A stretch of DNA of 20,238 nucleotides from a virus (IMGVR_UViG_3300013132_000337:1-20238), one strand, 5' to 3'; numbered from the stretch's first letter, positions 5,551 through 20,062 are shown. Made by a program: numbers and translations. Notes: generated by a model from the letters alone, not told the origin.

Positions 5551-5578
5551 CTCCTCAGTATCAGCCGCTCGTGGGGAG
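5551..5578 (-). promoter_or_regulatory. Repeated 28-base motif, copy 1
   Basis: Core 5563-5578 reads CTCCCCA-CGA-GCGGCT on the minus strand, followed by GA and TACTGAGGAG. The final GAGGAG is the ribosome binding site of the gene starting at 5545, so the motif and the translation start are physically joined. It fills most of the 34-base gap between two genes. Confidence 0.8.
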
Positions 5579-5579
5579 C

Positions 5580-6878
5580 CTAACTAACGAAGTTGGCGGC
5601 ACGTCCCACGCTAGCCCGCGCCTGACGGTTGATACGCTGCCTTTCCAAATCAGCCAACTGCTGCGTCTTCAGCGCTTCCGCCCGACGACGGTCCTCTACC
5701 AGACCCTGAAGCAGGCCGGCACTCTGGCCTCGGCGGGCCGCCACACGGCCCTGACCGGCCGCCGCCAGATAGTCGGCGTACGCGCCCGCTGCCGGTGAGG
5801 TATCTAAGCCCATCTGTGCGAGCGCGCTAGAGACATCTTGTCGGCCGCCAGCGACCCCGCGGCCGACGCCGCGAATATAGTCGTAGAGGCTGCGCTCCTC
5901 AGTGGCGGTGTCCCGGCCGATACGGTTGATGGTTTCCGCGTAGCCGCGCTCTGCTTCGCGGGCGGCGCGCATAAGATCTTCGTACTCCTCTGGGGTTAGC
6001 GCCTCAAGTTGCGTATCGACAACGCTGCCGGCTGTGTCGGCACCCGTGCCAGTACCAGCGACCGCGGCGGCTGTCGCTGCCGCAGCGTCCGCGCCTTTAC
6101 CCTTTCCTTTACCCTTGCCCCCTTTGCCTTTGCCGCCACCAGTCCCGGTGCCTGTCGCGCCCGCACCTGTTCCGGTTTTTGCCGTAGGAAGGTTCGCGGC
6201 GATGCGCGCAAACCTGCGATCCTCTGCACTCTGCCCCATCTGCGGCTGCCCTGTGGCGGACACCGGCGTTGCGGCAGCACCCCCCGCACCGAGAGCCCCA
6301 GTGAGAGCGGCTCCCGAAACCAGAACGCCGGCAGGGGTGCCGACATATGTGCGGAACTTTCCAGCTCCCTGCAAACCCGTTGTTACTGGCTGCTGTATGC
6401 CAGCGCGCAGTGCGCCAGGGGACGAGAGCGATCCCTTAGGCACTAGGCGTGTTCCGCGAATACCTGCGAGCGCAGAACTGACGGGGTTAGCTCCAGTTTT
6501 CAAACCCATACCGACTCCGCGCACGGCGCCTGCGGCACTGCCCGCACTTGCCGCGGTACCGAGAGTAGTGATCGCGCCCAGAGCGGTCTGCCCGAGTGCC
6601 CCCTTCAGGTCGCCTCGCTCCGCGCGGCGGGCGGCCTCTTGATAGTTGGCTACGCCGCTCAAGTTGTAGGTGCCGCGCGCCAGCGGATCGAGGACGGGCA
6701 TAGCGCCCATCACCAGCCGGTTCGCCATAGGGTTGTTGCTGATGACGTTACCCCAATAGTTTCCGGCACGCTGCGTGACCGCAGGGTTGAACGGGTTCAG
6801 ATTAGCGTTAGTCCAGGACAAAGCGTTACCGGTGCCAGACACCGCTTTCTTGCCCCAGTTGCGTGGATCCCAACTCAT
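5580..6878 (-). CDS. Gly/Ala-rich virion protein with Lys-Gly repeat, 432 aa (internal-virion-like)
   Basis: ATG at 6878 is preceded by GAGGTGA with 4 bases between, again the end of a copy of the repeated motif. The N-terminal 200 residues hold several Gly/Ala-rich hydrophobic stretches (for example GALGQTALGAITTLGTAA) that could insert in or lie along membranes. A low-complexity segment follows, with Thr-Gly repeats and then GKGKGGKGKGKGKG. The last 130 residues are charged and probably helical, with an IxRIGRD motif shared with the 392-residue neighbour. I do not recognise a named family. Position between a fibre-like gene and the giant virion protein, together with the composition, suggests an internal or ejected podovirus protein. 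The stop lies 2 bases beyond the core of motif copy 1. Confidence 0.85.
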   Translation of the reverse strand: MSWDPRNWGKKAVSGTGNALSWTNANLNPFNPAVTQRAGNYWGNVISNNPMANRLVMGAMPVLDPLARGTYNLSGVANYQEAARRAERGDLKGALGQTALGAITTLGTAASAGSAAGAVRGVGMGLKTGANPVSSALAGIRGTRLVPKGSLSSPGALRAGIQQPVTTGLQGAGKFRTYVGTPAGVLVSGAALTGALGAGGAAATPVSATGQPQMGQSAEDRRFARIAANLPTAKTGTGAGATGTGTGGGKGKGGKGKGKGKGADAAAATAAAVAGTGTGADTAGSVVDTQLEALTPEEYEDLMRAAREAERGYAETINRIGRDTATEERSLYDYIRGVGRGVAGGRQDVSSALAQMGLDTSPAAGAYADYLAAAGQGRVAARRGQSAGLLQGLVEDRRRAEALKTQQLADLERQRINRQARASVGRAANFVS

Positions 6879-6883
6879 GAAGT

Positions 6884-6911
6884 CACCTCACTAAAAGCCG
6901 CTGATGGGGAG
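6884..6911 (-). promoter_or_regulatory. Repeated 28-base motif, copy 2
   Basis: Core 6896-6911 reads CTCCCCA-TCA-GCGGCT on the minus strand, then TT and TAGTGAGGTG, one mismatch from the consensus tail. The GAGGTGA end is the ribosome binding site for the gene starting at 6878. It occupies nearly all of the 37-base intergenic gap. Confidence 0.8.
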
Positions 6912-6915
6912 GAGG

Positions 6916-8568
6916 TCATAGCGTTAGTCCTTCCAGCCAGTCTTTCTGCACGTATACGCCGGATGATATTTCGGCCTGCACGCATATCGCCGAAATCAGG
7001 TCGGACGATCCCGGCTCGGCCCCCACCGAGGCATGGTTACTGTAGTCCTCCATGCGGGGCCTTGTGTTGGTGGTGCCTGTCGCTGATGACGTGTAGTGGT
7101 ATTCAAAAACGCGGGAATCCGAGGTGGCGTATATGCTAGTAGTTGAGTTTGCGATGTCGTAAACTACTACAGCGGGCCTACTAGGGTCTTGCGCTGCGTT
7201 TGCCGCGTAAGCGGCGTCAAAGACCCCCAACGCTATGGATCCCCCGTAGGCAACCTTTGGTCCGTCCAAAACCGCAATAGTTGTAACTGCGCGCAACTCG
7301 CCATCTTTCCACAAGCCGGACACTGTAGTAACTGTCGGATAGGTGATTGTCGCCAGTGTTGGACTTGTTAGGTCCATCGCACCTATTCCTATAGTGTCGT
7401 CCGTCGAGCTGACCTGAGCGGCGCCTGTAACACTAGGTTGGTCGCTGACGGCTGCACCGCTTCTGTAGATATAGTAGAGTTTATCTCCGTATATTTCTTT
7501 AGAAAATCTCTCCTCAAGAAGAACCGGCATGGTGCCTGCCGCCCCGAACGTGTACGGGTGGACAGTGCCATCAACGTAAATGGTGTTGCCGCTGCCCCCG
7601 CCGACGCCGTGTCCGACAACAACGTGACCGTCGCCTGATGCACAGAACAGTTTTGTGTTGTTTACTGTTCCGCCAGTTGTCATTGTGGAGGTTAGGTCGG
7701 TATCGGTAACGGCGCCAGTACCGTCTATCTCCAAAAGCCAGATGCCTGCCGTCCATACACTGCTGATGAGTTTTTGCCCCGCAACTCCCCACAGAGATCC
7801 CGAGGATGGCCGTTTTCCTAACATCACATAGCCGTAGTCGTGAGTAACCCAGGTTGTTCCGTCGTTTACCGCTAACGCGTCTTTTCCGGCCGTTGATGCG
7901 GATGCGACTGCGAGTATTGTACCATCCGTGCAAAACGAAAAGGTGGTTGACGAGTAACTGCTCGGCCTTATCGCGGTAGGCAGGGATGTCACTGTACGCG
8001 TAGCCGCCACCCAGTCCTCGGCTATCAACGTAAACGCGTCATAATCTATCGTGTATCCGGCAGTTCCGTACACTAGAAACGCGGGATTATACTGCTGAGT
8101 AGCGACACCAAAAGATGAAGACGTGCGCGGCAAACCTGGTATACCGCTAGGGCTGATGAACTCATACTGGTCATAGCCCAGCGGCCCGCCGCTCCGGTAA
8201 ACAAGCCCAACCGCAAAGGGATCTGGGTAGTCCTCGTTGGCTGACAATATGATAGTGTCACCAACCTCCAACTTGACACTTGCCGCGTTTACAAAGTTCA
8301 CCACGGCGCCCGCTATGTCTACGGTACCAGTATTCGACGCTGGCGTATAGGTCACCACGTCCCCAATCAGCAGCTCGGCGTTACCAGTGATGTTAGTGAT
8401 GCTCTGGTCAACATACTGAGTGATTTCCTGCGTAGTGTTGTTGATACTCTGAACGGTCTCCCGCTCAAGATCCTTTACCTCCTCTTCGAGGCGGTCCAAC
8501 TGGTAGCTTTGCGGGGTGCGCGACGGCCCAAACTGTACCGTGTTACGGTCGTTGCGTGCCTCGCTCAT
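6916..8568 (-). CDS. Probable tail fibre / receptor-binding protein, 550 aa
   Basis: ATG at 8568 overlaps the upstream stop as ATGA, with GAGGAG 8 bases upstream. Residues about 21-62 form a predicted coiled coil (DRLEEEVKDLERETVQSI onward), typical of trimeric fibre stalks. A small beta segment follows with a GDVVTY...VGDTIILSANEDY pattern, OB-like in appearance. The remaining ~400 residues are rich in Thr, Ser, Gly, Ala and Val with few charged residues, as in beta-rich receptor-binding domains. The gene has visibly lower GC and a different codon choice from its neighbours, common for host-range genes acquired by exchange. No catalytic motif is recognised. It sits between the nozzle-like and internal-virion-like genes, a plausible place for a tail appendage. 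The function is inferred from architecture and position only. Confidence 0.8.
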   Translation of the reverse strand: MSEARNDRNTVQFGPSRTPQSYQLDRLEEEVKDLERETVQSINNTTQEITQYVDQSITNITGNAELLIGDVVTYTPASNTGTVDIAGAVVNFVNAASVKLEVGDTIILSANEDYPDPFAVGLVYRSGGPLGYDQYEFISPSGIPGLPRTSSSFGVATQQYNPAFLVYGTAGYTIDYDAFTLIAEDWVAATRTVTSLPTAIRPSSYSSTTFSFCTDGTILAVASASTAGKDALAVNDGTTWVTHDYGYVMLGKRPSSGSLWGVAGQKLISSVWTAGIWLLEIDGTGAVTDTDLTSTMTTGGTVNNTKLFCASGDGHVVVGHGVGGGSGNTIYVDGTVHPYTFGAAGTMPVLLEERFSKEIYGDKLYYIYRSGAAVSDQPSVTGAAQVSSTDDTIGIGAMDLTSPTLATITYPTVTTVSGLWKDGELRAVTTIAVLDGPKVAYGGSIALGVFDAAYAANAAQDPSRPAVVVYDIANSTTSIYATSDSRVFEYHYTSSATGTTNTRPRMEDYSNHASVGAEPGSSDLISAICVQAEISSGVYVQKDWLEGLTL

Positions 8569-10571
8569 CGCTTAGGCTCCTCGCCGGTAGTCCAGAACGC
8601 CGCCTCCTGCAGCCGCACATACCCGCGGAACGTCACCGTGGCACTAGCAATGACCTGTTTGCCGATACCGGCGGGGACCACAAAGTCCCCGTACCCTGCC
8701 GCATAGGCCCGGTTCAAGGTGACGGTATGCGTCGCCGGTGCGGTAGACTGGTTGAGGGCGCCGGAAGCCTGCACTCGCACGGTACGCACCTCAGAGGTGG
8801 CGCCGGTGGGGGTTTCGAAAGTCATGCCGAAACGATGCCAGTTCTTGCGGTTATGTTCGTTCGTCTCGCCTACAGTGGGGGACGATACGGTCAAGTCGGT
8901 TGCGGTGCCGTAGATTTTGCCGCGCTCACCCTCCGGGCCATTTGGCGTGTAACGATGCACGACACCACCAGACACGAAGAACAGCTCCTCGCCGCACCCA
9001 ACCATCGAGTACACACCGGCCTCTGGGGCGACGAACTCAGTCCAGCAGCCCGTCGCCTCAGACCCAGACGATGTGAGGAGCGTGAATACGAGCAGGCGGC
9101 CACCACGCCACACGAACAGGTGCTTACCGACCGCAGCCACATGATCGTCCTGGCCAGCAGCGGCGGGGGCCTTCGGCCCAAACCGGTCAAGCCGGTCACA
9201 CTTGTCACCGTCAGTGTACCAGACACCGCCGAGACGGTCCATGAACACGACCACGCCAGCTTCCGCCCACACGCACGACACGGAGCGATGCCCGAGGGTG
9301 GTTTCCGTTGGGGTGACAGAGCCGAGACCGCCGCGGACGATTTCTTTCTTCACAGCGAACGGATCGGGGGTGCCGAAATATGGGTGCAGTTGTGACAACT
9401 GGCCACGGAAACTGATGACACCATCACCCTCCGAACCCGAACTCGTGATAGCGACCAGAGTGTTATCTAGTACGTGGAGGCCGACAACAGTGGTGTCGCT
9501 AGTGCCTGCGCGCAGCACGGAACGAGGATCCCACGTGTCGATGTCGTCCTCAGAGTAGTAGATGTAGGAACGATACGGCGCCGTGATGGAATCGTCAAGA
9601 GAGAACACAGCCGTGTTGTCACCAGCAAGAATAGCGGTAGTGGCTTTGTCGCTACGCCACTCCACGTCACCGAGAATAAGCAGACCGCCCCACGACACAC
9701 CGACGTTGGCGCGCGGAATCGTGCCACGCCCAGGGAGCAAAGTACCGTTAGCGTCAAGGTAAGTGTACGGATGAAAGTCGTTAGCAGCAGCCGGGACACC
9801 GGTACGCGAGCCGAGCCCGTACCCGTTGAACAGCGAGGCGGCACCCGCCGGTGTAGCCACCGACAGGAAAGCGCCCGCAGAAGTTTGCGGCATCCGGCGC
9901 CAGTTCGGGAACGTGCAGGCCCTCACCTGCCCAGCGCCGCTAGCGGCGTACGGGTCAACGTAGGCAACCACGGCCATCTGGTCCGACACCGAGGTGTAGG
10001 ATCCGCTGCCTGTGGAGTAGCGGCGCGAATGTAGCAGCACCGCAGACACTACCGCCTTGGGTGAAGAGGCGAGGGTGGTGTCGGTGGAGAAGTTCGTAGC
10101 GGTGCCGTTCGTCGGCTCAACCGCGTACTTGTACACCTCAAACGGAATGGAGCAGATGAACCGGAAGTCTGGGTTAGCGGTGATAGTGATAGCAGGCTGA
10201 TCGGCCTTGTCGTTGTCGCCCACCTTCACACCAACGTTCTCCGCGGTGGTGATCTGCGTCCACACCGCGTCGTCGGCAACCGTGTGGACGGCGTTAGACG
10301 CGGGGGCTTTACACCACCAGATAGTTCCGGCGTCACCCTCCCCAGGGGCTTTGATGCCGACAAGGAACGTGCCCACCGGTGAGGCCAGCGGATACACGGC
10401 CTTGAAACCGGTAGTGACGCCAATCTGTTGGCACGGCCACTGCGACACGAACGACACCTCGGACTCGGGGACGAACCCCTTCAACTGCGACCATTGGCGT
10501 TTCGTGAAGTCGCCTGGACCGGTAGCCTCTTGGATGCCTCCGGAGAAGTCGCTCAAAGTGAGCTTCTGCAT
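8565..10571 (-). CDS. Tail nozzle-like protein (tail tubular protein B type), 668 aa
   Basis: ATG at 10571 directly follows the TAA of the adaptor gene, with GGAGG 6 bases upstream. The N-terminus (LTLSDFSGGIQEATGPGDFTKRQW) has the 'DFSGGI' opening that I associate with long beta-rich tail proteins placed after the adaptor in podoviruses. The body is almost wholly beta-type sequence with repeated aromatic/Gly turns (for example VVFMDRLGGVWYTDGDKCDR and HLFVWRGGRLLVFTLL), consistent with a propeller like that of T7 gp12. Length (668) is near that of T7 gp12 (about 790). Position after the adaptor supports a role as distal tail tube or nozzle. The assignment rests on order and fold-like pattern, not on an aligned family. 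Confidence 0.8.
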   Translation of the reverse strand: MQKLTLSDFSGGIQEATGPGDFTKRQWSQLKGFVPESEVSFVSQWPCQQIGVTTGFKAVYPLASPVGTFLVGIKAPGEGDAGTIWWCKAPASNAVHTVADDAVWTQITTAENVGVKVGDNDKADQPAITITANPDFRFICSIPFEVYKYAVEPTNGTATNFSTDTTLASSPKAVVSAVLLHSRRYSTGSGSYTSVSDQMAVVAYVDPYAASGAGQVRACTFPNWRRMPQTSAGAFLSVATPAGAASLFNGYGLGSRTGVPAAANDFHPYTYLDANGTLLPGRGTIPRANVGVSWGGLLILGDVEWRSDKATTAILAGDNTAVFSLDDSITAPYRSYIYYSEDDIDTWDPRSVLRAGTSDTTVVGLHVLDNTLVAITSSGSEGDGVISFRGQLSQLHPYFGTPDPFAVKKEIVRGGLGSVTPTETTLGHRSVSCVWAEAGVVVFMDRLGGVWYTDGDKCDRLDRFGPKAPAAAGQDDHVAAVGKHLFVWRGGRLLVFTLLTSSGSEATGCWTEFVAPEAGVYSMVGCGEELFFVSGGVVHRYTPNGPEGERGKIYGTATDLTVSSPTVGETNEHNRKNWHRFGMTFETPTGATSEVRTVRVQASGALNQSTAPATHTVTLNRAYAAGYGDFVVPAGIGKQVIASATVTFRGYVRLQEAAFWTTGEEPKR

Positions 10572-11582
10572 TTAGACCCTCCGGAACCAGTATGGGTACT
10601 GTTGGAGCTCCCTGCCCTCGATGCCGATTTGGAAAGCGGTGTCGTCGTGGCTCAACTCGTAGAAGGAAACCATGTCAGTATACATTTCGGCAGCCAACTG
10701 ATCGAACACGTCGGCGCGCTCAGGGGTCTCAACGTCGATGATGCGCAACACACGAGCAGCGGCCATGTAGGCCAGCATAGGGTTGAACTGCGCGTGGAAC
10801 GCGGGGGTAGCGTTATCGTTGGCAAAAGTCACCGTCTGGGCAGAGAATCGGACACGCAAGTCGTACTCGTCACCGCCATCGAACCGCTCCTCGGGAGACA
10901 AAGTGATGCTGCCCGCAGAGTCGTTCACATCGTAGTAGGCGGCCCGGCGGTTCGAGTTCACGTTCACCGTATCGGCACGCTCAAACACTTCCTCCACCAC
11001 ACCGCGCGGATCAACCAACTGGACGGAGATGACACGCGGGTTCGCGGTACCAAGCGAGTGCGGGCCAACCGTGCTGATGTCGTTGAAGGTGACCGTCGAC
11101 TCCAGCCAGTCCCAAGTGCGCTGACGCGCAACCGTCTGATAGGCTTCCTGAATCCACTGGTTGATCAGGGCGTCGGAGATAGTGTCCGACTGAACGCCGG
11201 TGATGTCACGCACATAGTCGCGCAACTGGCCGCGGTTCCCAACCGTAGCCGCAGCCAACTTCGGGAAGTACTCCTGTTTCATCGCAGCAAGCAAACCAGC
11301 ATACTCGGCGGCGTACGCCTCGCCGCGCTTGGTGTCATCGGCCTGCGAAGCCAGCACACGGATAGCGGTACGGTAGGCAAGGATAGCGTGGAACTGCTCC
11401 TCGAACGTTGGGGTGTCCGTGCCCGTCACCAGTTCAGCCACCGCCCACGGCCACTTCTCCGTACGATACAACTCGTACAGGGACTCGTTCATCCAGCGGT
11501 CAAGAAGGGTATCTGGTACGAGGTCGGTCGCATACACGCCAGTCAGATCGCGAACATACACCCTAAGCGCAGCAAGATTCAA
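10572..11582 (-). CDS. Head-to-tail adaptor (tail tubular protein A type), internally duplicated, 336 aa
   Basis: The start is TTG at 11582, supported by GAGGAG 7 bases upstream; no better ATG is present nearby. The protein contains two related helical units. Unit 1 has RVYVRDLTGV...LLDRWMNESLYELYRTEKWPW (7-46) followed by FHAILAYRTAIRVLASQ (64-80). Unit 2 has RDYVRDITGV...LINQWIQEAYQTVARQRTWDW (121-159) followed by FNPMLAYMAAARVLRII (266-282), with a beta-type insertion of about 100 residues between its two parts. The 'RDxTG...xxWxxEA...W.W' pattern fits podovirus adaptors that form the ring under the portal. T7 gp11 (196 aa) has one unit, so the extra length is explained by duplication. It lies directly after the capsid gene and its terminator. 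Confidence 0.85.
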   Translation of the reverse strand: MNLAALRVYVRDLTGVYATDLVPDTLLDRWMNESLYELYRTEKWPWAVAELVTGTDTPTFEEQFHAILAYRTAIRVLASQADDTKRGEAYAAEYAGLLAAMKQEYFPKLAAATVGNRGQLRDYVRDITGVQSDTISDALINQWIQEAYQTVARQRTWDWLESTVTFNDISTVGPHSLGTANPRVISVQLVDPRGVVEEVFERADTVNVNSNRRAAYYDVNDSAGSITLSPEERFDGGDEYDLRVRFSAQTVTFANDNATPAFHAQFNPMLAYMAAARVLRIIDVETPERADVFDQLAAEMYTDMVSFYELSHDDTAFQIGIEGRELQQYPYWFRRV

Positions 11583-11597
11583 GACAGTACTCCTCTA

Positions 11598-11625
11598 CTC
11601 CTCAGTATGAGCCGCCGTTGGGGAG
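11598..11625 (-). promoter_or_regulatory. Repeated 28-base motif, copy 3
   Basis: Core 11610-11625 reads CTCCCCA-ACG-GCGGCT on the minus strand, followed by CA and TACTGAGGAG, a perfect consensus tail. A second GAGGAG (11590-11595) follows within 3 bases, and it is this second one that is correctly spaced for the TTG start at 11582. The motif lies just downstream of the capsid terminator. Confidence 0.8.
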
Positions 11626-11633
11626 CCCCTATA

Positions 11634-11661
11634 ACGAGAAAAGCCCCCCGCCGAAGCGGGG
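11634..11661 (-). terminator. Rho-independent terminator after the major capsid gene
   Basis: On the minus strand the stem is CCCCGC / GCGGGG around a TTCG loop (11646-11661), followed by GGGCTTTTCTCG. A C(UUCG)G loop is an exceptionally stable RNA tetraloop, and the short T run fits a terminator. It would end or reduce capsid transcripts before the adaptor gene. Confidence 0.75.
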
Positions 11662-11672
11662 AGCCAATCCCA

Positions 11673-11690
11673 TGTCCCCCTTGCGGGGCA
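11673..11690 (-). other. Hairpin with GCAA tetraloop in capsid 3' UTR
   Basis: The minus strand reads CCCC-GCAA-GGGG inside TGCCCCGCAAGGGGGACA. GCAA is a GNRA-type stable loop. It is the middle of three consecutive hairpins after the capsid gene and has no T run of its own, so a transcript-stabilising role is more likely than termination. Confidence 0.6.
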
Positions 11691-11694
11691 GAAA

Positions 11695-11710
11695 CACCGC
11701 TTAGGCGGTG
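11695..11710 (-). other. Hairpin spanning the capsid stop codon
   Basis: The minus strand reads CACCGC-CTAA-GCGGTG, a perfect 6-bp stem. The TAA stop of the capsid gene lies in its loop. It is the first of three hairpins in the capsid 3' region. The same CTAA loop caps the 9-bp hairpin at 19892-19913. Confidence 0.6.
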
Positions 11711-12711
11711 CGGATGAGCAGACCGTTTGCGCGGCGCTCGGAGACACCCACCGTCACGGTCGAGGCCAGCGGGACAACGGTGTCCAGCGTGCCAGGAACG
11801 ACCTGAGCGGGGAATGCCTTCATGAACTCGCCGGCGCAGTAGGCGAACCGGAGGCTGTCCTGGTTGAGCAGGTAAGCGCGGTCATCCTGACAGTCCGGAT
11901 CGAGACGGACGACGGTTCCACCGAACTTGATCTCGTTGAAACGAGTCTCGACGGTGTTGCCACCGAGCACCTGGAGGGTGCCCTTTTCAGCCAAGTAGGC
12001 CTCGAGTTCCTCGTAGACGTCGAAGCCCACGATGATGTGGGTAGGACGCTTGCGCGAGTTGCGGTAGATTTCGTTCGTCGCGGTGCGGAGAGCCTCAGCG
12101 ATGTCGGCGGCACCGGCGGAAATTTCTCCACGGAAACCGGCCTGCCAGTAGCTCTTGCCAGCGTCGGACGGGTCGATGCCACCCACTGGGTTGGCAGCGA
12201 AGTCCGCGTTGACACCTTCGTAGTAAGTGTCCGAAGACAGGTTACCAGTCAAGTTGTCAATCGAGTTGAACGCGTCGGCGTCCCAGTCAGCGGACAGAGT
12301 GTGCAACTTCGAGGTGAGGAAGTTGCCGTGGTCCGCAGCAGCGGCCTTGACGTACTCCTCGACGAGGTTGATGATCTGTTCCGGGCCGGAGTTCTGGAGA
12401 ATCTCACGGTGCTTGACGCGGAACGGGGTGATGATGCCCTTGGCCCAGCCGTAGACAGCGGAACCCATGATGTCAGCCGAAACGCTCGACGAGAAACCGC
12501 CGGAACCGGCAGCAGTGTCGAACGCAGTGGCGTTGAGGTTCGCAGCGCGAACCGGGATCACGAGACCACGCCCAGTGATGGACTTGGCATTCTTCTTGAA
12601 AAGCTCGAGAGTGGGGTGCTCGAGCAGCACGTTGTCCACCAGCGTCTTCTCATATTTCTGGAGAGTCGCGGTGAAAGTCTGGACGAAAAAATCGTCACCC
12701 AATGCAGCCAT
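11701..12711 (-). CDS. Major capsid protein, 336 aa
   Basis: ATG at 12711 has a strong GGAGGT ribosome binding site 7 bases upstream, and codon choice is strongly GC-biased, as expected for a very highly expressed gene. It follows the scaffold gene and has the size and pattern of HK97-fold shell proteins. An N-terminal helical arm (FVQTFTATLQKYEKTLVDNV) comes first. Next are a Gly/Ala/Ser loop region (about 65-85) and long central helices (LVEEYVKAAAADHGNFLTSKL). A P-domain-like segment (PTHIIVGFDVYEELEAYL) then precedes a beta-rich C-terminus ending in a 'TVTVGVSERRANGLLIRTA' strand. It forms the icosahedral shell with the upstream scaffold. No head-decoration gene is evident nearby. The family call is by pattern and position and I regard it as solid. 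Confidence 0.9.
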   Translation of the reverse strand: MAALGDDFFVQTFTATLQKYEKTLVDNVLLEHPTLELFKKNAKSITGRGLVIPVRAANLNATAFDTAAGSGGFSSSVSADIMGSAVYGWAKGIITPFRVKHREILQNSGPEQIINLVEEYVKAAAADHGNFLTSKLHTLSADWDADAFNSIDNLTGNLSSDTYYEGVNADFAANPVGGIDPSDAGKSYWQAGFRGEISAGAADIAEALRTATNEIYRNSRKRPTHIIVGFDVYEELEAYLAEKGTLQVLGGNTVETRFNEIKFGGTVVRLDPDCQDDRAYLLNQDSLRFAYCAGEFMKAFPAQVVPGTLDTVVPLASTVTVGVSERRANGLLIRTA

Positions 12712-12803: not shown

Positions 12804-13817
12804 TCAGCCGCCGTTTTCCTTCATCGATTCAAGAATCAAAGAACGCAGATCCTTGGGCTCCCCCGCAACCGGCTGTGCGCCGGCTCCGCTGGAACCCTTT
12901 CTAGCCACCGCTGAAGTGGCCTTCTTTTGCTTTGCGCGCTCAGCCGTCTTTTCAGCGACCTTGCGTTTCTGGCTTTGCTCCTCGTACTTGAGAGCCTTAT
13001 AAGCGGCCTTCAAGTTCGTGAGCTCGTTGTCCCGGGCATACGCCGCTAGGCGTTGACGGAACTCGGCACGTTGCTGACCCGACAACTTGAGACCTTCGTT
13101 TCCGATGATCTCGTCGATGTCCTTGTCAAACTGGACGATGGCCCGCTGAACAGCGGCCTCAGTCTCCTGGGCTTGCGCCCGAGCCTGCTCCTGCTGCTCA
13201 TTGCGAGTCACACGCTGACGAAGTGTTTCCACTTCAGACTGCTGCGCCCATTCGGCACGCACCTCCGGAGTGATCCCGAAAATGTCGAGAAACTCACGCT
13301 CCAAAAGGTTGGCGGAAGCCAACTCCTTGATGAGCAGAGCAACCGCCTGTGTCGGGTTGTCCGTCGCTGCGGTGAAGTGCGCGAGAACCGTAACAGGGTT
13401 GTCGTTCCAAGCCTCGTCGAGCGATGTTACCTGCTCAACGGTCTCGGACAACTCCTGTCGGGCTGTCTCGAACTCCTGCCGTTCGTGTGCCAGTGCCTGC
13501 GCCTTGCGGGTATAGTCCGCCTGACGCTGGTACCCTGCCAATGCTTCCTCGAGGGTCACACTGACGGCTTCGCCGTCGATGGTCACCTCATAGGTTTCAC
13601 CGGCTTCCTCGGAGTCTTCCGCCTCGACCTCTTCGGTCTCGTCGGCAGCCTCTTCGGTTTCTTTGACTTCTGCGTCGTTTATGTCTACGGGCTCCTCGGT
13701 CACCGCTTCAGCGGCGGTGTCTTCGGTGTCGCCTGCCTCGGCCGGAGTGTCCTGGGTTTCAGGGTTCTGGCTGGCCTGCATCGCCTCGTTGATGATGTCA
13801 CGAAGTGCGTCTGTCAT
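12804..13817 (-). CDS. Capsid scaffold protein, 337 aa
   Basis: ATG at 13817 (MTDALRDIINEAM) has GGGAG 6 bases upstream; an in-frame extension further upstream runs through hairpins and has no such site. Residues about 20-75 are extremely acidic (Glu/Asp/Thr/Ala). They are followed by a TIDGEAVSVTLEEALAGYQ segment and the RQADYTRKAQALAHERQEFE pattern (about 98-117) common in phage scaffolds. Long Gln/Glu/Arg coiled coils fill 115-290. The C-terminus is Lys/Arg-rich then short and polar (to ENGG), which in scaffolds usually contacts the capsid protein. It lies directly before the major capsid gene. No protease domain is seen, so the scaffold is probably expelled or cut by another enzyme. Confidence 0.85.
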   Translation of the reverse strand: MTDALRDIINEAMQASQNPETQDTPAEAGDTEDTAAEAVTEEPVDINDAEVKETEEAADETEEVEAEDSEEAGETYEVTIDGEAVSVTLEEALAGYQRQADYTRKAQALAHERQEFETARQELSETVEQVTSLDEAWNDNPVTVLAHFTAATDNPTQAVALLIKELASANLLEREFLDIFGITPEVRAEWAQQSEVETLRQRVTRNEQQEQARAQAQETEAAVQRAIVQFDKDIDEIIGNEGLKLSGQQRAEFRQRLAAYARDNELTNLKAAYKALKYEEQSQKRKVAEKTAERAKQKKATSAVARKGSSGAGAQPVAGEPKDLRSLILESMKENGG

Positions 13818-13893
13818 GTCTGTCTCCCTTACGAGTGTCCTAGCCGCCCGATTGTCCCTGAGGGGTTCGAGGGTGAACTTGTTCGTGGTTAGC

Positions 13894-13913
13894 GAGAATA
13901 CGGCTGTATTCTC
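13894..13913 (-). other. Perfect 8-bp hairpin in the scaffold gene leader
   Basis: The arms are GAGAATAC / GTATTCTC with a 4-base loop (AGCC on the minus strand). It starts inside the tail of motif copy 4 and lies about 77 bases before the scaffold start. There is no T run, so it is more likely an RNA-structure or protein-binding element than a terminator. Confidence 0.55.
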
Positions 13914-13935
13914 AACAATAGCCGCCAGTGGGGAG
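13908..13935 (-). promoter_or_regulatory. Repeated motif, copy 4 (degenerate tail)
   Basis: Core 13920-13935 reads CTCCCCA-CTG-GCGGCT on the minus strand with all 13 fixed bases present; the tail TGTTGAGAAT is only partly like the consensus. The CTCCCCA arm also closes a hairpin with the end of the preceding gene. It lies about 90 bases upstream of the scaffold start, too far to be its ribosome binding site. Confidence 0.7.
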
Positions 13936-13948
13936 ATTTCACTCCCCA
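13929..13948 (-). other. 7-bp hairpin joined to motif copy 4
   Basis: The arms are TGGGGAG and CTCCCCA with a 6-base loop (TGAAAT on the minus strand), and the stop codon of the 61-residue gene lies within the hairpin. One arm is the CTCCCCA half of the repeated motif. The same arms occur at 19966-19985. Confidence 0.65.
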
Positions 13949-14124
13949 GTCCCGGCATTTGGGGACAGGTGGATAGCGGCGTTGATAAGATCCTCCACCG
14001 TCCCAACCCACTCAGGCAGCAGAAGCATGAACGTCTCCCGCTGATCTTGGGTCATCGCCAGGAATGCGTCCACCTGCTTGGCGGCACGCGACTTCACAAA
14101 CGGCGGCACATCGTACTTGAACAT
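13939..14124 (-). CDS. Small DQRE-motif protein, 61 aa, unknown function
   Basis: ATG at 14124 overlaps the preceding stop by one base (TGATG). The body carries AFLAMTQDQRETFMLLLPEW followed by VGTVEDLINAAIH. This closely matches the C-terminal end of the 250-residue protein just upstream (LTNDQREAFLALLPEWTESLDDLVAAVR), so the two are related, most simply by local duplication. The segment is predicted to be two or three short helices. No known function is recognised. Translational coupling to its larger relative suggests that they act together. Confidence 0.75.
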   Translation of the reverse strand: MFKYDVPPFVKSRAAKQVDAFLAMTQDQRETFMLLLPEWVGTVEDLINAAIHLSPNAGTGE

Positions 14125-14876
14125 CAGATCGTCCGGACGGCAGCAACTAGGTCGTCGAGGGACTCGGTCCACTCGGGGAGCAGGGCCAGGAACGCTTCCC
14201 GCTGGTCGTTGGTCAGTTGGCGCCACGTAGAGCGTAGCGCGGCTCCTATTCTTTTGACGTCAAGTTCGCCTGGGCCTGAACGTTGTGTATTGAGTATTCT
14301 AAACGCGCTTCCAGTAAACTCTCGCTGGTCGTTGGTCATTGGGCGCATGAGATCGGCAAAGTCCTTGATCCTGTTTCTATTTATACGTCTTTTTCCGCCT
14401 GGGCCTGCTATAGCACTTTTCGGCAAAGCAGCAGCCACTAGTCCAGTCCATTTTCTGGGTACGTCGGCTTGTTCTACGGCGGACATCACATCTTCAAAAA
14501 GCCGCACTTCAAAAAGCGTATTGTCTATCCAACGTGTTCCGCTACCACTCTTCATCTGCTTAACGAGCGGACTGTCTGGGTATTTGCGGGAAAACCTATC
14601 GACATGGTCTCGCAGTTCAATATCAGCAAGTTCTAAGTCGCCTCTAGCGCGCAAATCTTTTAACTGGCCAGCAGTGACCTCACCAGGCTTACCGCCCTTC
14701 CAACCCCAGTCGTCAGCCTTCTCCGCAACCTTCTCACCGGCGTCACCAAGCATACGCTTGACAGCCTCAACGCGATCACCGACGTTGACTTTCTTTGTCA
14801 AGTCACCAAGGTCAACCTTCTTGACCCCGCCGACGATCTCGTCGAGGGCCATCTTTAGGACGCGACCCTTACTCAT
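14124..14876 (-). CDS. DQRE-repeat protein between portal and scaffold, 250 aa, unknown function
   Basis: ATG at 14876 lies inside the end of the preceding gene (8-base overlap), with AGAGGA upstream. Residues 1-70 are Lys/Asp/Gly-rich in GC-rich DNA. Residues about 73-215 are encoded by clearly AT-richer DNA with different codon choice, suggesting an inserted or recombined segment. Two in-frame tandem units are visible: GPGGKRRINRNRI...MTNDQREF (158-187) and GPGELDVKRIGAAL...LTNDQREAF (201-229). They are matched at DNA level by an exact 16-base and an exact 12-base repeat, 123 and 129 bases apart. The end LALLPEWTESLDDLVAAV recurs in the next gene. I do not recognise a family. The gene falls among head-morphogenesis genes, but a moron (non-structural passenger) is equally possible. 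Confidence 0.75.
   Translation of the reverse strand: MSKGRVLKMALDEIVGGVKKVDLGDLTKKVNVGDRVEAVKRMLGDAGEKVAEKADDWGWKGGKPGEVTAGQLKDLRARGDLELADIELRDHVDRFSRKYPDSPLVKQMKSGSGTRWIDNTLFEVRLFEDVMSAVEQADVPRKWTGLVAAALPKSAIAGPGGKRRINRNRIKDFADLMRPMTNDQREFTGSAFRILNTQRSGPGELDVKRIGAALRSTWRQLTNDQREAFLALLPEWTESLDDLVAAVRTI
14200..14407 (-). repeat. In-frame tandem duplication, about 126 bases per unit
   Basis: A 16-base sequence (CGCTGGTCGTTGGTCA on the plus strand) is at 14200-14215 and 14323-14338. A 12-base sequence (CGCCTGGGCCTG) is at 14267-14278 and 14396-14407. Offsets of 123 and 129 bases keep frame. The rest of the units have diverged. Confidence 0.75.
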
Positions 14877-15072
14877 CCTCCGAGTCCTCTTCCTTGTCTT
14901 CTTCGTCGGCCTCGTTGCACGACTCGCACGGAGCGCCACAGCACGGGCACTCACACTTGTGGTGCTCCTCGTCCTTCTCACCCTTCTCGTCGTAGCCTTC
15001 CTCCTTGTGGAGTTCCTTCATCGGCTTAGCGAGACGCTCAAGGGCGTCGAGTTTCACATACTTGTCTTTCAT
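14869..15072 (-). CDS. Small acidic Cys-rich protein, 67 aa
   Basis: ATG at 15072 overlaps the portal stop as ATGA. The N-terminal 30 residues are basic/amphipathic. Then comes a cluster HHKCECPCCGAPCESC, with six Cys (40, 42, 44, 45, 49, 52) after two His, followed by a wholly acidic tail (EADEEDKEEDSEDE). The Cys/His cluster could bind a metal such as zinc. The acidic tail suggests contact with a basic partner or DNA mimicry. No family is recognised. Tight coupling to the portal and to the next gene argues that it is real and expressed with the head genes. Confidence 0.75.
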   Translation of the reverse strand: MKDKYVKLDALERLAKPMKELHKEEGYDEKGEKDEEHHKCECPCCGAPCESCNEADEEDKEEDSEDE

Positions 15073-17000
15073 ACCAGCGGCGCCCCTTCCGCAACACCAG
15101 GCATCGGCGCTCCGCCGAGACCCATCAACTGTGCGATAGCAGGATTGTTCATGTCGACCGGCGGCTCACCCATCGGCGGCATACCCGCCAACTCCGGCGG
15201 CAACCCCTGCTCCATACCTGGGACCATACCAGCCTCCGGGCCCATCGGGGCCGGCTGGGGCTGCGGGCGAACCAGCAGGTGATCAGGGTTGAGACCCATG
15301 TAGGTGAGCGCTGAACGTACAGCGTTCTCCGGGTCGTAGCCCATCTGGGCGAGCATTGGGGCGATCTGGGTGAGAATCTCCATACCTTGCCGCGCTTTTG
15401 TGAGCGGGTTCACCGCCTGGGTAGAACCGCCCTCAGTTTCGATAGAGAACTCGCCGTCGATATCTTCCGCCGACACCTGCAACCACATCGGAGCGTCCGG
15501 GCCTGCGATACGGACAGCCTTACCGGTGTCGAGGAACTGCTGGCACAGGGCCAACAGGCGGGTGCCGATTTCGCGCGAAGCGCGCTCAACGTTGACCTGC
15601 TTATCCATCGAGCGGAGCGTCGAAGCGCCCTCAACCGCAGCGGCGGCCGTAGCCGGAACACGCGAAGCGACCGACACGGCACCGGCCTGCAGGTCGGTCA
15701 CGCCGAGGATGCGCTGCATGTAGTCCTGCAACTTGTTTTCCATCGCATAGTTGTCAGACGGGGTGGCGAGACGCTGCACCGGGACGAGCACCTCGTTGAT
15801 GTTGACGTTACCAGGGACCTCGATGGGGATCACCGCATCGGGCTTGTTCTCTTGGAGGGACTTGGCGAGTTCGGGGGTGAGGACTTTCTTGTTGACGAAG
15901 TACTTGTTACCGACGCGTTTGAGGTCGTTGATTTCCGCGACCATGATCTCGTTCACCATCAGCTGCAGACCGGCAACGTTTTCGACATCACCGAACGACC
16001 AGAAGGTCTGGCCGCCGTCATTGAAGTTACGCATATGCACGAACGGCGGGTAGCGGTGAGCGTACGGAATCGGTCCCTCATAGAGGGCCTTGTTGGCGTC
16101 CAACTGGAGTACGCACATCGTGCGCGAATCCATGTCGTAGAACTCGTAGACGGTTGCGTGCGAAAAGATAGATGGCAGCGAACCTTCCTGGTCTTCGTAG
16201 CGTTCAATGGTTTCACGCTCAGCGTAACCAGTGTCAGGCACGATGTCTTTGACGGCCTGCTTGTCAAACAGAGGGTTCTTCTTGAGGTCCTCAACGGGCA
16301 GGCGGAGCTTCTGGGCGATCCAGCGTGTCGAGTTCAACCGGCGGGCGTTCGCGGGAACGAAGATGTCGTACGGGGAAACGTACTCGACGAACGGCTCATC
16401 GGTCTCAACAAGTTGGTTCGTCAGGGACACCGACTGGACGATCTCTGCGATGTCAGCATCGTTGAGCGGGGTGCCCAACTCTTGCGCCACTTCGAGCGCG
16501 GTCGCCATCAGTTCATCCACCTCAGCGGCGATGTCGTCATCGGTGCGGTCCGAGGTCATCTCATTGTAGGACCAGCCAACCTTACAGAACCCGTTGCCGA
16601 TGACCACCATGTCTTGCGTCATGTCGCGAAGCACGTCAGTGGAAGCGGAGCGGCGCCAGAAGTATTCGAGGACGGCTTTCGCGATGGTGGCGTTCTTCTC
16701 GATGACGGCTTCATCACCGCCGAGAGGGGTGACGATGAGCTTGGGGTCCCGGGCAGTGACCGAGTTGATGATCAAGTTCAGGTGCGGCAGCACCATGTTC
16801 ACGGTCCGCAGGAACGTGCCAGGGGTCGGGAACGGCAGGATACGGTTCAGGTCGATGGCGGTAACTTCGCGTTGCGCGCCAATCCGGTAGAGGGACTCGA
16901 GCATACGCCAATGCTGATGCACCGGCTCCATGCGACGGATAGCGTCGCGTAGGGCCGCCTGCTTGTCAGCCAACGTATACTTACTCTTGTACTCAGCCAT
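15069..17000 (-). CDS. Portal protein, 643 aa
   Basis: ATG at 17000 overlaps the end of the large terminase gene by 8 bases, with GAGGA upstream. The N-terminus (IRRMEPVHQHWRMLESLYRI, 21-40) is followed by NMVLPHLNLIINSVTARDPK (68-87) and DMVVIGNGFCKVGWSY (130-145). This series is typical of podovirus-type portals, with wing, stem and crown regions beyond. The last ~65 residues are Pro/Met/Gly-rich and probably flexible (PQPQPAPMGPEAG onward), as in portals with a disordered barrel end. Twelve copies are expected to form the DNA channel at one capsid vertex, binding the terminase during packaging and the adaptor afterwards. Position between terminase and scaffold is canonical. Confidence 0.9.
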   Translation of the reverse strand: MAEYKSKYTLADKQAALRDAIRRMEPVHQHWRMLESLYRIGAQREVTAIDLNRILPFPTPGTFLRTVNMVLPHLNLIINSVTARDPKLIVTPLGGDEAVIEKNATIAKAVLEYFWRRSASTDVLRDMTQDMVVIGNGFCKVGWSYNEMTSDRTDDDIAAEVDELMATALEVAQELGTPLNDADIAEIVQSVSLTNQLVETDEPFVEYVSPYDIFVPANARRLNSTRWIAQKLRLPVEDLKKNPLFDKQAVKDIVPDTGYAERETIERYEDQEGSLPSIFSHATVYEFYDMDSRTMCVLQLDANKALYEGPIPYAHRYPPFVHMRNFNDGGQTFWSFGDVENVAGLQLMVNEIMVAEINDLKRVGNKYFVNKKVLTPELAKSLQENKPDAVIPIEVPGNVNINEVLVPVQRLATPSDNYAMENKLQDYMQRILGVTDLQAGAVSVASRVPATAAAAVEGASTLRSMDKQVNVERASREIGTRLLALCQQFLDTGKAVRIAGPDAPMWLQVSAEDIDGEFSIETEGGSTQAVNPLTKARQGMEILTQIAPMLAQMGYDPENAVRSALTYMGLNPDHLLVRPQPQPAPMGPEAGMVPGMEQGLPPELAGMPPMGEPPVDMNNPAIAQLMGLGGAPMPGVAEGAPLV

Positions 17001-18780
17001 ATGGTCCTCTCGGTGTTATGAAGAGCCCGTCACTGTTGAGGGCGATACCCTCCCACTGTCGTGCTGCCTGCTCCTCAGCGGCAGCTATGGCCCGCTCACG
17101 TGCCTCGCGTATCGGCTTACCGACATCGAAGACGAAAGCGGGTTTCTCCTCAATAGGAGCCGCTTGTGGGGAGTCGCCAGCCTCTTCGATGAGAACCCAG
17201 AGGGCGATAGCCATAGACATCACCAAGTCGTCGTGGCATCCGACATCGGCCGCGTAGCGGATATTGCCGTTCGCGGTCTCCTGCGCGACGAACTGGCCGA
17301 GCTCCACACGGAGGGCGGGGTAGAGCCCGTCGAGGGTCATTTCGCCGTTTCGCACCGCCAGATACTTGGCGAGCCGGTCCACGACGGCGCGCCGGCGGTC
17401 CACCGTCATAGGGAACGCAAACATTCGGGCACCCCGAGACCGTTTCGCACCTGGCGTCTGGTGCATATACGGGTTAGGGTAGTCTAGGTGCCTATGCAGC
17501 TCGTTGATCGGCAGGGCGCCCTGACCGCCCTGGTCTTCTACGGCAAGCAGGGCCGCCCATTGGCGGCCGGAGAAGAACCGGCCGAGCCGGTCCAAGGCCG
17601 CCGCGAACTCTGGGGGCTGGACAGTGTTCGAATGGTAGTAGCCGACGATCTCTGGGCGGCCGTCAGCGTTCAACGTGAGCAGATGCGCGGACGCATAGTC
17701 CTTCCCGACACCTTGGGAGGGGTCGGCGCCGATGACGTAGAAGCCGTTCTTGTCAGGGTCAAGGGTCGCCAAGTGGAGCGGCCCGTGGTCGTCTTGCTGA
17801 AACTCGAGCGTTTTGTCGTCCCGCCACACCAGGTCGCCGCGATACAGGAACTCTGGGAGGGTCTCCTCTGAGGGGAGGCCCACGAAACGGGGTCGGCCAG
17901 ACTCGCGGAACGCTTCCTCGTCATCTGTGGGGTATTCTGCGAAGAAACGCCACGGTTCGTCCGCAAAATCGCGTCGTTTGTTGTCGTGTCGGGTGACGCA
18001 CGCGGTTCTGGTGCCTTCTTGACCCCCACACCAGCCGCAGTCTTTGCTGCATCTCATGAACGGGGAGACCATCCACGGACGGAAAAATGCTACGAACTGG
18101 GTGTCTCCTTTCTTGGCGGAACGGTAAAGTTTAGCGAACCGGTTGTATGCTCCTCGCGCGGTAGAGATGATCCACATAGACCCGCCGGCGTCGACGGTCG
18201 GGAGAAGGGTGCGCAGCACGTCATCCTGCAGGGAGGCAGGTTCGACGAGGGCGGCCTCATCCCAGATGACAAACGAGGCGGTTTCACCGGCGAACACGCC
18301 TGCGGTAGCGGAAGCAGCCTTGATGTTAGACACCATCCCGTCCGGGAAGACGAAACCCATACCTTTGGTTGAGTCGGCGTCCAGTTTCGGTCCGCGTGCC
18401 TGCAGCCACTGCGGCAGGAACCGGTACGCCAACCGGGCCTGGGCAAGGTTCTTGTTTGATGAGTCTTGGGTGCGGGACACTACGAGAATGTTGGCGCCGG
18501 GTCGGAACAAGGCGAGCCAGAGTGCGTGCGCCATCGCCAAAGTGGTGTAACCGATCTGGCGCGCTTTCAACGAGACGACGTAGCGGTTGTTGCGGATAAG
18601 GTTCCTGAGGTCTTTCTGGTAGTCGAACAGTTGAAACTTGGTGCGGCCGCGGGCGTCCTGCTCACTGGGAATGTAGACGTAGTTCTCAATAAAGTACTCT
18701 TCATCTTGGGCGCAGCGCCGCCACTCGAGTTCCGTCCAGAGCTGCTGGAGTTCCTGGGCCCGTTTAGAGTTCATTGCCAC
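16993..18780 (-). CDS. terL: Terminase large subunit (packaging ATPase and nuclease), 595 aa
   Basis: The ATPase domain shows Walker A SLKARQIGYTT (70-80), Walker B FVIWDEAAL (170-178) and the coupling motif ISTAR (205-209). The nuclease domain shows acidic residues expected to bind metal in GADPSQG (D353), AVEDQGG (E415/D416) and GCHDDLV (D517/D518). Unusually, a Cys cluster C244-x3-C248-x2-C251-x9-C261 lies between the two domains and may hold a zinc ion. The enzyme cuts concatemeric DNA and pumps it through the portal. The start is GTG at 18780 or ATG at 18774; both overlap the preceding gene and the ribosome binding site does not decide. A copy of the repeated motif lies in the coding sequence near the C-terminus (residues ~536-544). 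Confidence 0.93.
   Translation of the reverse strand: MAMNSKRAQELQQLWTELEWRRCAQDEEYFIENYVYIPSEQDARGRTKFQLFDYQKDLRNLIRNNRYVVSLKARQIGYTTLAMAHALWLALFRPGANILVVSRTQDSSNKNLAQARLAYRFLPQWLQARGPKLDADSTKGMGFVFPDGMVSNIKAASATAGVFAGETASFVIWDEAALVEPASLQDDVLRTLLPTVDAGGSMWIISTARGAYNRFAKLYRSAKKGDTQFVAFFRPWMVSPFMRCSKDCGWCGGQEGTRTACVTRHDNKRRDFADEPWRFFAEYPTDDEEAFRESGRPRFVGLPSEETLPEFLYRGDLVWRDDKTLEFQQDDHGPLHLATLDPDKNGFYVIGADPSQGVGKDYASAHLLTLNADGRPEIVGYYHSNTVQPPEFAAALDRLGRFFSGRQWAALLAVEDQGGQGALPINELHRHLDYPNPYMHQTPGAKRSRGARMFAFPMTVDRRRAVVDRLAKYLAVRNGEMTLDGLYPALRVELGQFVAQETANGNIRYAADVGCHDDLVMSMAIALWVLIEEAGDSPQAAPIEEKPAFVFDVGKPIREARERAIAAAEEQAARQWEGIALNSDGLFITPRGPYG
17146..17173 (-). promoter_or_regulatory. Repeated 28-base motif, copy 5, inside the large terminase gene
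   Basis: Core 17158-17173 reads CTCCCCA-CAA-GCGGCT on the minus strand, then CC and TATTGAGGAG, matching the consensus fully. It is coding (for DSPQAAPIEE) and lies about 145 bases upstream of the portal start. No start codon is correctly placed after its GAGGAG, which argues that the motif is not just a ribosome binding site. Confidence 0.7.
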
Positions 18781-19108
18781 CAGTTAGGTACTGTACCAGG
18801 TCGGGGTTGTCGCGCAACAGGGCGAACAGGGCTGGGGACAGCGACCGGATCAGGTGCTCCTCGGCTTTGTCGCTGAGGCGGTCGGAGGTGCCGGTGACGT
18901 AGAGGACGGCGTGCAGCACCTCGTGGAGAAGCGTTTCGCGGAGCACCGTATCGGCCACATCGGGATGCAGGACGATCTCCAGATGCCCGTGGGTGGTGAT
19001 ACCGTAGAGGTCGCTGTCGGACTCTTTTTCCAACTCTTTGATGCGGGACAGGTCAACTTTGACCGTGTACCGGTACGGGCCGATCCGGACAGACGTCGGG
19101 GTGCTCAT
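18764..19108 (-). CDS. Small HEXXH metallopeptidase-like protein, 114 aa
   Basis: ATG at 19108 (MSTPTSVRIG) overlaps the preceding stop as ATGA, with GGAAGGAG 5 bases upstream, so a slightly longer in-frame start is not needed. Residues 58-72 (RETLLHEVLHAVLYV) contain the zinc-protease motif HEVLH (62-66). Glu83/Glu84 in KAEEHLIRSL could be the third metal ligand. The remaining helices (SPALFALLRDNPDLVQYL) complete a minimal metallopeptidase-like fold. Known relatives of this type include ImmA/IrrE- and SprT-like minimal domains, but the exact family is not certain. Its place between the two terminase genes raises the idea of processing a head or packaging protein; an inactive structural role is also possible. 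Its last 17 bases overlap the large terminase start. Confidence 0.8.
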   Translation of the reverse strand: MSTPTSVRIGPYRYTVKVDLSRIKELEKESDSDLYGITTHGHLEIVLHPDVADTVLRETLLHEVLHAVLYVTGTSDRLSDKAEEHLIRSLSPALFALLRDNPDLVQYLTGGNEL

Positions 19109-19311
19109 CGCAACTCCTTCCAAGGTGACCAGTGCCGATGATGGTAGACTGCACCGACGGTGCCGTTCTTGTCCAGATACACAATCCGGGCCCCGCAGGC
19201 GCAGACGGCAGACCGAGGTTTGCCGGACGGCGGTTCGTGCCCGAACCAGTCGTCCATGTGTCCCTGCCGGTCATGTTCGTCGTCTTCTTGGAACACGTGC
19301 AGCAGCTGCAT
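19105..19311 (-). CDS. Small Cys/His protein between terminase genes, 68 aa
   Basis: ATG at 19311 lies 4 bases after the small terminase stop, with a weak GAGAAGAG ribosome binding site; an internal ATG at 19257 behind AGGGA is an alternative start. Residues 33-60 hold VCACGARIVYLDKNG...VYHHRHW, a CxC plus HHxH arrangement that could bind one zinc ion. The first 30 residues are acidic and His-rich. It overlaps the metallopeptidase gene as ATGA, so translation is probably coupled. No family is recognised; a short zinc-ribbon-like accessory protein is the best description. Confidence 0.65.
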   Translation of the reverse strand: MQLLHVFQEDDEHDRQGHMDDWFGHEPPSGKPRSAVCACGARIVYLDKNGTVGAVYHHRHWSPWKELR

Positions 19312-19315
19312 GACG

Positions 19316-19786
19316 CTACTCTTCTCGTGGACGCTCAACCCGCCACCCCAAGGTAGTGAGGGCAGACTCAAGTTCGTCTGCCGATAGAGCCGCAACCGCA
19401 CGCGCGACCAAGCCAGGAAGTTCCACGTTCTCAAGATCAAGTGTACGAGCAGCCACTTCCTCCTCGACGAAGGGCTTGCCGTAAGTTTTGAAATATAACT
19501 CAAGAGCTTTAGCGTTACCGCCACGCGCACCCGCGACCAACTGAGCCTTGACAGCGCGGTAGGAAGCCTCATCAGAACCATCATCACCAACCTCCACAGT
19601 TGGCGCACCCCCCAAAGAGGCACGCAGGGCCACAAACTCGGGTTCCTGCTTCCAACGCCGCAACGTACGAGCAGTCACACCGTTAGAAGCCGCCCAATCC
19701 TCCTCAGTAGAGATAGCGCGCGTAGACTCCGGCGAATCAAGCCAAAGAGCGAAAGCTTTCCACTTGGCGTTCGTTTTCTCACTCAT
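19316..19786 (-). CDS. terS: Terminase small subunit, 156 aa
   Basis: ATG at 19786 (MSEKTNAKWKAF) follows GGAGG with 4 bases between; upstream in-frame codons lie in a non-coding leader. Residues 26-50 (STEEDWAASNGVTARTLRRWKQEPE) form a clear helix-turn-helix of the kind that binds the packaging site. A central helical part (YRAVKAQLVAGARGGNAKALELYFKTYGKPF, 76-106, written here in two overlapping pieces: YRAVKAQLVAGARGG and NAKALELYFKTYGKPF) probably builds the oligomeric ring. The acidic C-terminus is expected to contact the large subunit. It is the first gene of the packaging block, preceded by about 450 non-coding bases that could contain its recognition site. Confidence 0.85.
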   Translation of the reverse strand: MSEKTNAKWKAFALWLDSPESTRAISTEEDWAASNGVTARTLRRWKQEPEFVALRASLGGAPTVEVGDDGSDEASYRAVKAQLVAGARGGNAKALELYFKTYGKPFVEEEVAARTLDLENVELPGLVARAVAALSADELESALTTLGWRVERPREE

Positions 19787-19831
19787 AGGTCCTCCAAAGT
19801 CTTTATTGCACTGCGGTGTATGACCTAGCGC

Positions 19832-19860
19832 AAAAAAGCGATCTTTGGCACAGCCCAAAG
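19832..19860 (-). terminator. Possible weak terminator/attenuator before the small terminase gene
   Basis: The minus strand forms CTTTGG / CCAAAG around 6 bases, then ATCGC and a run of six T. The 5-base gap before the T run and the short stem make it a weak terminator at best. It would lie in the leader of the packaging transcript, 46 bases before the start codon. Confidence 0.35.
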
Positions 19861-19891
19861 CCCCTGGCGCCGGTTCCGGCTCTTGGAGCCT

Positions 19892-19913
19892 GAGCGGGCC
19901 TTAGGGCCCGCTC
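19892..19913 (-). other. Perfect 9-bp hairpin with CTAA loop
   Basis: The arms are GAGCGGGCC and GGCCCGCTC, with loop CTAA on the minus strand. No T run follows. The stable GC stem in the leader could protect the 5' end of the transcript or be a protein-binding site. Confidence 0.65.
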
Positions 19914-19924
19914 CGGAGGCCGGA

Positions 19925-20062
19925 TGCCGGAGCCAGCTTCCTGACCCGTTTATACTAGCCGCTAGTGGGGAGGAAAAACTCCCCAACTTTTGGGACACTG
20001 TATCAACGTTCACACAACTGGCATACCCCCAAAAACCCTGCCCCCAAATGCTGGCTCCGGCA
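19925..20062. repeat. 13-bp inverted repeat enclosing motif copy 6
   Basis: TGCCGGAGCCAGC (19925-19937) and its exact complement GCTGGCTCCGGCA (20050-20062) are 112 bases apart. They bracket motif copy 6 and its hairpin. This could be a long-range RNA stem or paired protein-binding sites. Confidence 0.6.
19945..19985 (-). promoter_or_regulatory. Repeated motif, copy 6, with joined hairpin
   Basis: Core 19957-19972 reads CTCCCCA-CTA-GCGGCT on the minus strand; the tail is TATAAACGGG, which departs from the consensus but includes a TATAAA that could be a -10 element. A hairpin TGGGGAG / CTCCCCA (19966-19985, 6-base loop) uses the motif's own arm, as at copy 4. It lies about 160 bases upstream of the small terminase gene. 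Confidence 0.7.

Follow-up and report, generated by a model that had tools for sequence, protein, structure and literature searches.

The window analyzed here, the whole stretch of 20,238 bases, is recorded as a linear virus sequence; it comes from IMG/VR as a 20-kb piece of a podovirus-like phage that has not been cultured, and it carries no early arm. All of its large genes with a family match lie on the minus strand, as do all copies of the repeated element listed below. Beyond the capsid gene, the same strand encodes candidate tail and internal proteins without family hits, together with a 1454-aa open frame. The scaffold gene begins at ~13817 and not at the TTG of the long open reading frame, which makes copy 4 of the element a true leader copy, with 96 nt between the putative +1 and the start codon. 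Searches of the window for tRNAs and Rfam families found none. Alignment of GTDB genomes with the capsid protein gave no host match, and a pattern match in a Clostridiales MAG was set aside as a host clue, since it occurs once, roughly as often as chance would predict. The features of the window are:

5552–5578, minus strand: copy 1 of the element; putative +1 at 5556, start codon of a 392-aa gene 11 nt downstream
6885–6911, minus strand: copy 2; putative +1 at 6889, start codon of a 432-aa gene 11 nt downstream
11599–11625, minus strand: copy 3, after the post-capsid terminator; putative +1 at 11603, start codon 21 nt downstream
11642–11665, minus strand: intrinsic terminator (10-bp stem and T run), separating copy 3 from the major capsid gene
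11701–12711, minus strand: major capsid protein (PHROG 9953, E 2e-18)
12804–13817, minus strand: scaffolding protein, corrected start (PHROG 3927, E 6e-21)
13894–13913, minus strand: hairpin GAGAATAC-AGCC-GTATTCTC, at the putative 5′ end of the scaffold mRNA
13909–13935, minus strand: copy 4, in the scaffold leader; putative +1 at 13913
13942–13948, minus strand: upstream inverted arm TGGGGAG of copy 4
15069–17000, minus strand: portal protein (PHROG 156, E 1e-22)
16993–18780, minus strand: large terminase subunit, terL (PHROG 2, E 5e-38)
17147–17173, minus strand: copy 5, inside terL; putative +1 at 17151, portal start ~150 nt on
19316–19786, minus strand: probable small terminase, terS, with a long structured leader (by position, no family hit)
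19946–19972, minus strand: copy 6, upstream of the small-terminase candidate; putative +1 at 19950
19979–19985, minus strand: upstream inverted arm TGGGGAG of copy 6

The six exact copies of CTCCCCA-N3-GCGGCT that a preliminary description had located in this DNA are all there, on the strand of the genes, and its view that they exceed chance is borne out, as none is expected (100 dinucleotide shuffles). Copies 1, 2, 3, 4 and 6 lie in intergenic gaps and copy 5 within terL, as had been proposed, and the tail shared by copies 1, 3 and 5 is TANTGAGGAG. The 13 fixed bases are part of a longer unit of ~25 bp, and the inverted arm upstream of copies 4 and 6 had escaped the earlier description.

The element in related phages

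Terminase and capsid searches yielded about 30 related contigs; the sole relative in the isolate collection, MW202803, is remote (portal identity 31%). The 41,074-base contig of one relative, G038, has a 127-base end repeat, which indicates a complete circular genome. Its late arm runs rightward from terS through to the internal proteins; its early arm, which runs leftward, encodes small proteins as well as a helicase, an exonuclease and a RusA-like resolvase. The same layout is found in G022. An AAA_25 helicase, a PD-(D/E)XK exonuclease and the RusA-like resolvase form an early set common to G006, G019, G022 and G038, and a SprT-like metallopeptidase is found in the early arms of G006 and G022.

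Alignment of 105 distinct sites from 30 contigs defines the unit as TCCCCA-N4-CGGCT-WWTAnT-RRGG. Its information is confined to 25 bp, with conservation ending past about position 25; position 21 is a purine in every one of the 105 sites and position 20 is T in 90. The upstream inverted arm is present in 34 of the 105 sites and in all 19 scaffold sites. The oriented relatives contain 47 copies with one mismatch or none, and every one of them is on the late strand. The complete relative has nine or so credible late copies; on its minus strand no site passes the full-pattern cut, and none is convincing on the early arm. Homologous slots are occupied upstream of terS, the scaffold gene and several later genes, downstream of the capsid gene, and within the 3′ part of terL. 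The outcome that the preliminary description had named as fatal to its proposal, namely random positions, both orientations and absence from relatives, was sought and did not appear: copies with one mismatch or none keep to the late strand in the relatives, and the homologous slots are filled. The distance from the putative +1 to the start codon ranges from 8 to 219 nt across copies and is 8–16 nt at many of them.

A collection-wide scan with the arm-bearing version found eight stretches, seven of them in this phage group. Single-copy matches in other viral contigs were dismissed as chance, since they are accompanied by no further copies and by one or two one-mismatch extras. Gapped-word searches of G039 and MW202803 showed no related element. 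The latter genome (MW202803.1) has repeats of its own, 39 palindromes of the form GTTTC-N4/5-GAAAC spread at ~1/kb over both arms of the 42-kb phage genome, a number far above chance.

The preliminary description had likened the repeats to the start-associated sequences of cluster K mycobacteriophages. These have the consensus GGGATAGGAGCCC and are found in the non-structural half of the genome, 3–7 bp away from start codons (PMC3203893). Both systems consist of short asymmetric repeats in one orientation near start codons, some with an upstream inverted repeat. However, TCCCCA-N4-CGGCT is not GGGATAGGAGCCC, the element occupies the structural arm, and its +1 lies 8–219 nt from the start codon, with some leaders of 86–219 nt; the analogy was therefore rejected.

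Evidence for a probable transcription start

The gap after the capsid gene keeps the order terminator, element, gene in each of 17 relatives; the terminator of the window runs from 11665 to 11642, and the element follows from 11625. Because the element stands behind an intrinsic terminator, a new transcription start is needed there. This arrangement argues against a reading in which the element acts on RNA, as a signal for processing or translation that would be cut or bound within a long polycistronic message and leave an mRNA end before the Shine-Dalgarno sequence. Many copies overlap a Shine-Dalgarno sequence and some upstream arms could form an RNA stem, which would suit such a signal, but only about a third of the sites have the arm, and the terL and long-leader copies are not beside a start codon. 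We regard this explanation as distinctly unlikely.

The scaffold leader provides a second fixed point. A stem of at least six pairs begins 0–3 nt past position 21 of the element in 19 of 19 relatives, compared with 32% of random windows, and the count falls from 19 to 3–5 when the frame is shifted by 4 nt or more. The sequences of these stems vary while pairing is kept. The hairpin was tested sequence by sequence, in place of RNAalifold, which missed it because the stems align poorly. Constraint is also seen within terL, where the Ser-Pro codons covered by the element read TCC-CCA in 29 of 29 relatives, against a background in which TCC accounts for 12% of Ser and CCA for 26% of Pro codons; the neighboring Ala and Glu codons are nearly fixed.

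These relations bear on a further possibility, that the copies are bound, in the manner of stoperators, by a phage repressor, or else by some other protein with no role in starting transcription. Asymmetric gap repeats in one orientation, with an inverted arm at some copies, would suit such sites. Yet the element is limited to the late arm, with none credible on the early arm, and it keeps a fixed relation to hairpin, purine and terminator, which makes this reading very unlikely. The stoperators of L5-like phages are repressor-bound sites scattered through the whole genome. The comparison with stoperators drawn in the preliminary description appears unlikely on the same grounds, as copies lie directly behind terminators, with hairpin and purine at a fixed distance.

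Ordinary bacterial promoters do not account for the element. Sigma-70-like promoters show no excess in the window, nor any over shuffles on the early arm of the complete relative, and no pair of −35 TTGACA and −10 TATAAT at a spacing of 16–18 nt occurs at any copy. Positions 9–14 of the element read NCGGCT, unlike a sigma-70 −10. If TAnT served as a bacterial −10, with the start 6–7 nt further on, the Shine-Dalgarno sequence would be lost from the message. Position, strand, constraint and the links to terminator and hairpin instead point to position 21 as the probable transcription start, which would place the Shine-Dalgarno sequence at the extreme 5′ end of many messages. Judged from these sequence relations, the element, which is real and strongly conserved, is most likely a late promoter array, for which only candidate readers can be named.

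The leaders have conserved features of their own. The ~95-nt scaffold leader (13894–13817 in the window, minus strand) is conserved past its 5′ hairpin in 19 relatives, with a single-stranded ACGAACAAG, a stem of CCC..GGGACAATC, and CACTCGA ahead of the Shine-Dalgarno sequence; it is possibly a translational or antitermination element. The terS leaders of relatives (19945–19787 in the window, minus strand) are long and rich in hairpins (e.g. GATCGGCCCTAAGGCCGATAC), with ACCGGT repeats, and are possibly a packaging site. Folding of the whole motif as a single RNA hairpin (CTCC..GGAG) was rejected, as the outer bases show no covariation (e.g. a 5′ C to T change is unmatched).

Candidate readers of the element

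Promoters of single-subunit phage RNA polymerases were another analogy drawn in the preliminary description, and its layout and promoter-like function have stood, whereas the polymerase has not been found. The T7 promoter reads CGACTCACTATA. The late (class II/III) promoters of T7 and the Autographiviridae are, like the element, compact units of ~23–25 bp that include the start and occur in many copies on one strand, with a TA-rich stretch just before a purine-rich start. The element is likewise one contiguous start-spanning unit, with TAnT directly before the purine, constraint extending to +4, a CGGCT-N3-TATA-like resemblance to CGACTCACTATA, and leaders as short as those of T7 phi1.5 (13 nt) and phi1.6 (11 nt). 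It differs from T7 promoters in its sequence, in the TCCCCA block at −21 to −16 and in the optional inverted arm. A profile search with PF00940 (Pfam RNA_pol) found nothing above cut-off in the contigs searched, including the complete genome, while T7 itself, the positive control, was detected at E 1e-110. The lone weak match (E 0.01) falls in an alanine-rich coiled-coil part of a big virion protein of G002; this protein was rejected as an N4-like virion RNA polymerase because of that location and because its profile finds no polymerase in the PDB. The early-arm genes of G022 and G038 do not exceed about 350 aa. As neither a complete relative nor the other contigs searched yielded a single-subunit polymerase, plain membership of the T7 promoter class is not supported, and we consider it rather unlikely that the copies serve a T7-type polymerase, whether one encoded by the phage and diverged past recognition or one supplied by the host or another element.

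Two early proteins, both known from relatives whose contigs reach the early regions, are more attractive. The first (148–151 aa; G002, G006, G019, G022, G023 and G038) resembles ECF sigma factors, the match being limited to region 4 (NCBIfam SigZ, 1e-11; SigE in the PDB, 2e-5; fold, SigR region 4); among the long contigs, G002 is the relative nearest to the window by capsid (91%). Sequence and fold agree on an ECF region 4, the model being confident only over residues 45–111. Profile matches begin near residue 27 and reveal no sigma region 2; on its sequence, the protein would not be a complete ECF sigma factor. ECF sigma promoters have a CGTCT-type −10 element, which CGGCT at −11 to −7 resembles. 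The invariant second block of the element is, however, at −21 to −16 and not at −35. An ordinary sigma factor, which reads −35 and −10, would need the blocks to be further apart, and the element fits no known sigma promoter. Within the literature covered, no paper turned up that links a phage sigma factor to a late promoter and to ECF, an absence that does not by itself establish novelty.

The second protein (about 200 aa; G005, G006, G019, G022 and G038) contains two helix-turn-helix (HTH) domains ~50 residues apart, with a model that is confident over residues 50–195. Its match to a late-activator family is weak (E 0.012), and Foldseek returned no significant match to the model. A structural match over residues 151–198 only, to sigma-4 and other HTH domains, has a Z of ~5 and is not diagnostic. 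The two blocks of the element lie one helical turn apart, a bipartite site that would suit a tandem HTH protein. We infer that this protein and the ECF-sigma-region-4-like protein, together with host RNA polymerase, are the best candidate readers.

A distant relative, G040 (terminase 48% and capsid 46% identical to those of G038), offers a comparison. It has no exact element, but its homologous slots contain [GA]CCCCA-N10-ATGATAG-like sites in the same register, in which CCCCA is retained and CGGCT is changed. With at most two mismatches, this variant occurs six times on the late strand and never on the early strand (shuffle mean 0.3), a count that is not independent because the pattern was derived from those slots, first picked by eye. 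In the tandem HTH protein of G040, the first recognition helix is near that of G022 and the second differs; its sigma-4-like protein is only 24% identical, with an insertion in the HTH. This single comparison, a lead only, suggests that the first HTH may read CCCCA and the second CGGCT.

The nearest functional analogy for such a small early activator of late genes would be Ltr/RinA of Gram-positive temperate phages, where a small early protein is likewise proposed to activate late genes via host RNA polymerase. Those regulators act at a single promoter, which precedes the packaging genes and has its repeats on the upstream side of a sigma-A TATA box (PMC13123087); the phages described here would have many promoters, with the site beside the start.

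We find it moderately likely, from the arrangement of the sites and the early gene content, that the element is a compact late promoter of ~25 bp at which early phage proteins redirect host RNA polymerase. Spaced along one arm, it would give nearly every late transcription unit its own start. Counted from that start, TCCCCA would occupy −21 to −16, CGGCT −11 to −7 and the AT-rich TAnT −4 to −1, with a purine-rich RRGG from +1 that would often also provide the Shine-Dalgarno sequence for a gene that begins 8–16 nt on. The two strongest sites, those of the small terminase and scaffold, also carry the upstream inverted arm TGGGGAR. Host RNA polymerase would most likely be redirected by the tandem HTH protein touching both blocks, with the ECF-sigma-region-4-like protein perhaps acting alongside it. 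More speculatively, and with considerable doubt, these may be T7-like promoters that evolved, in a phage lineage not described before, without a T7-like polymerase, for which the HTH protein and the stand-alone region 4 protein together form a split initiation factor made by the phage.

The element provides a DNA-only marker for finding members of this uncultured phage group. If the proposed mechanism is true, a small phage would run a T7-style late programme on host RNA polymerase, using promoters organized around contact blocks at −21 to −7 and not at −35 and −10.
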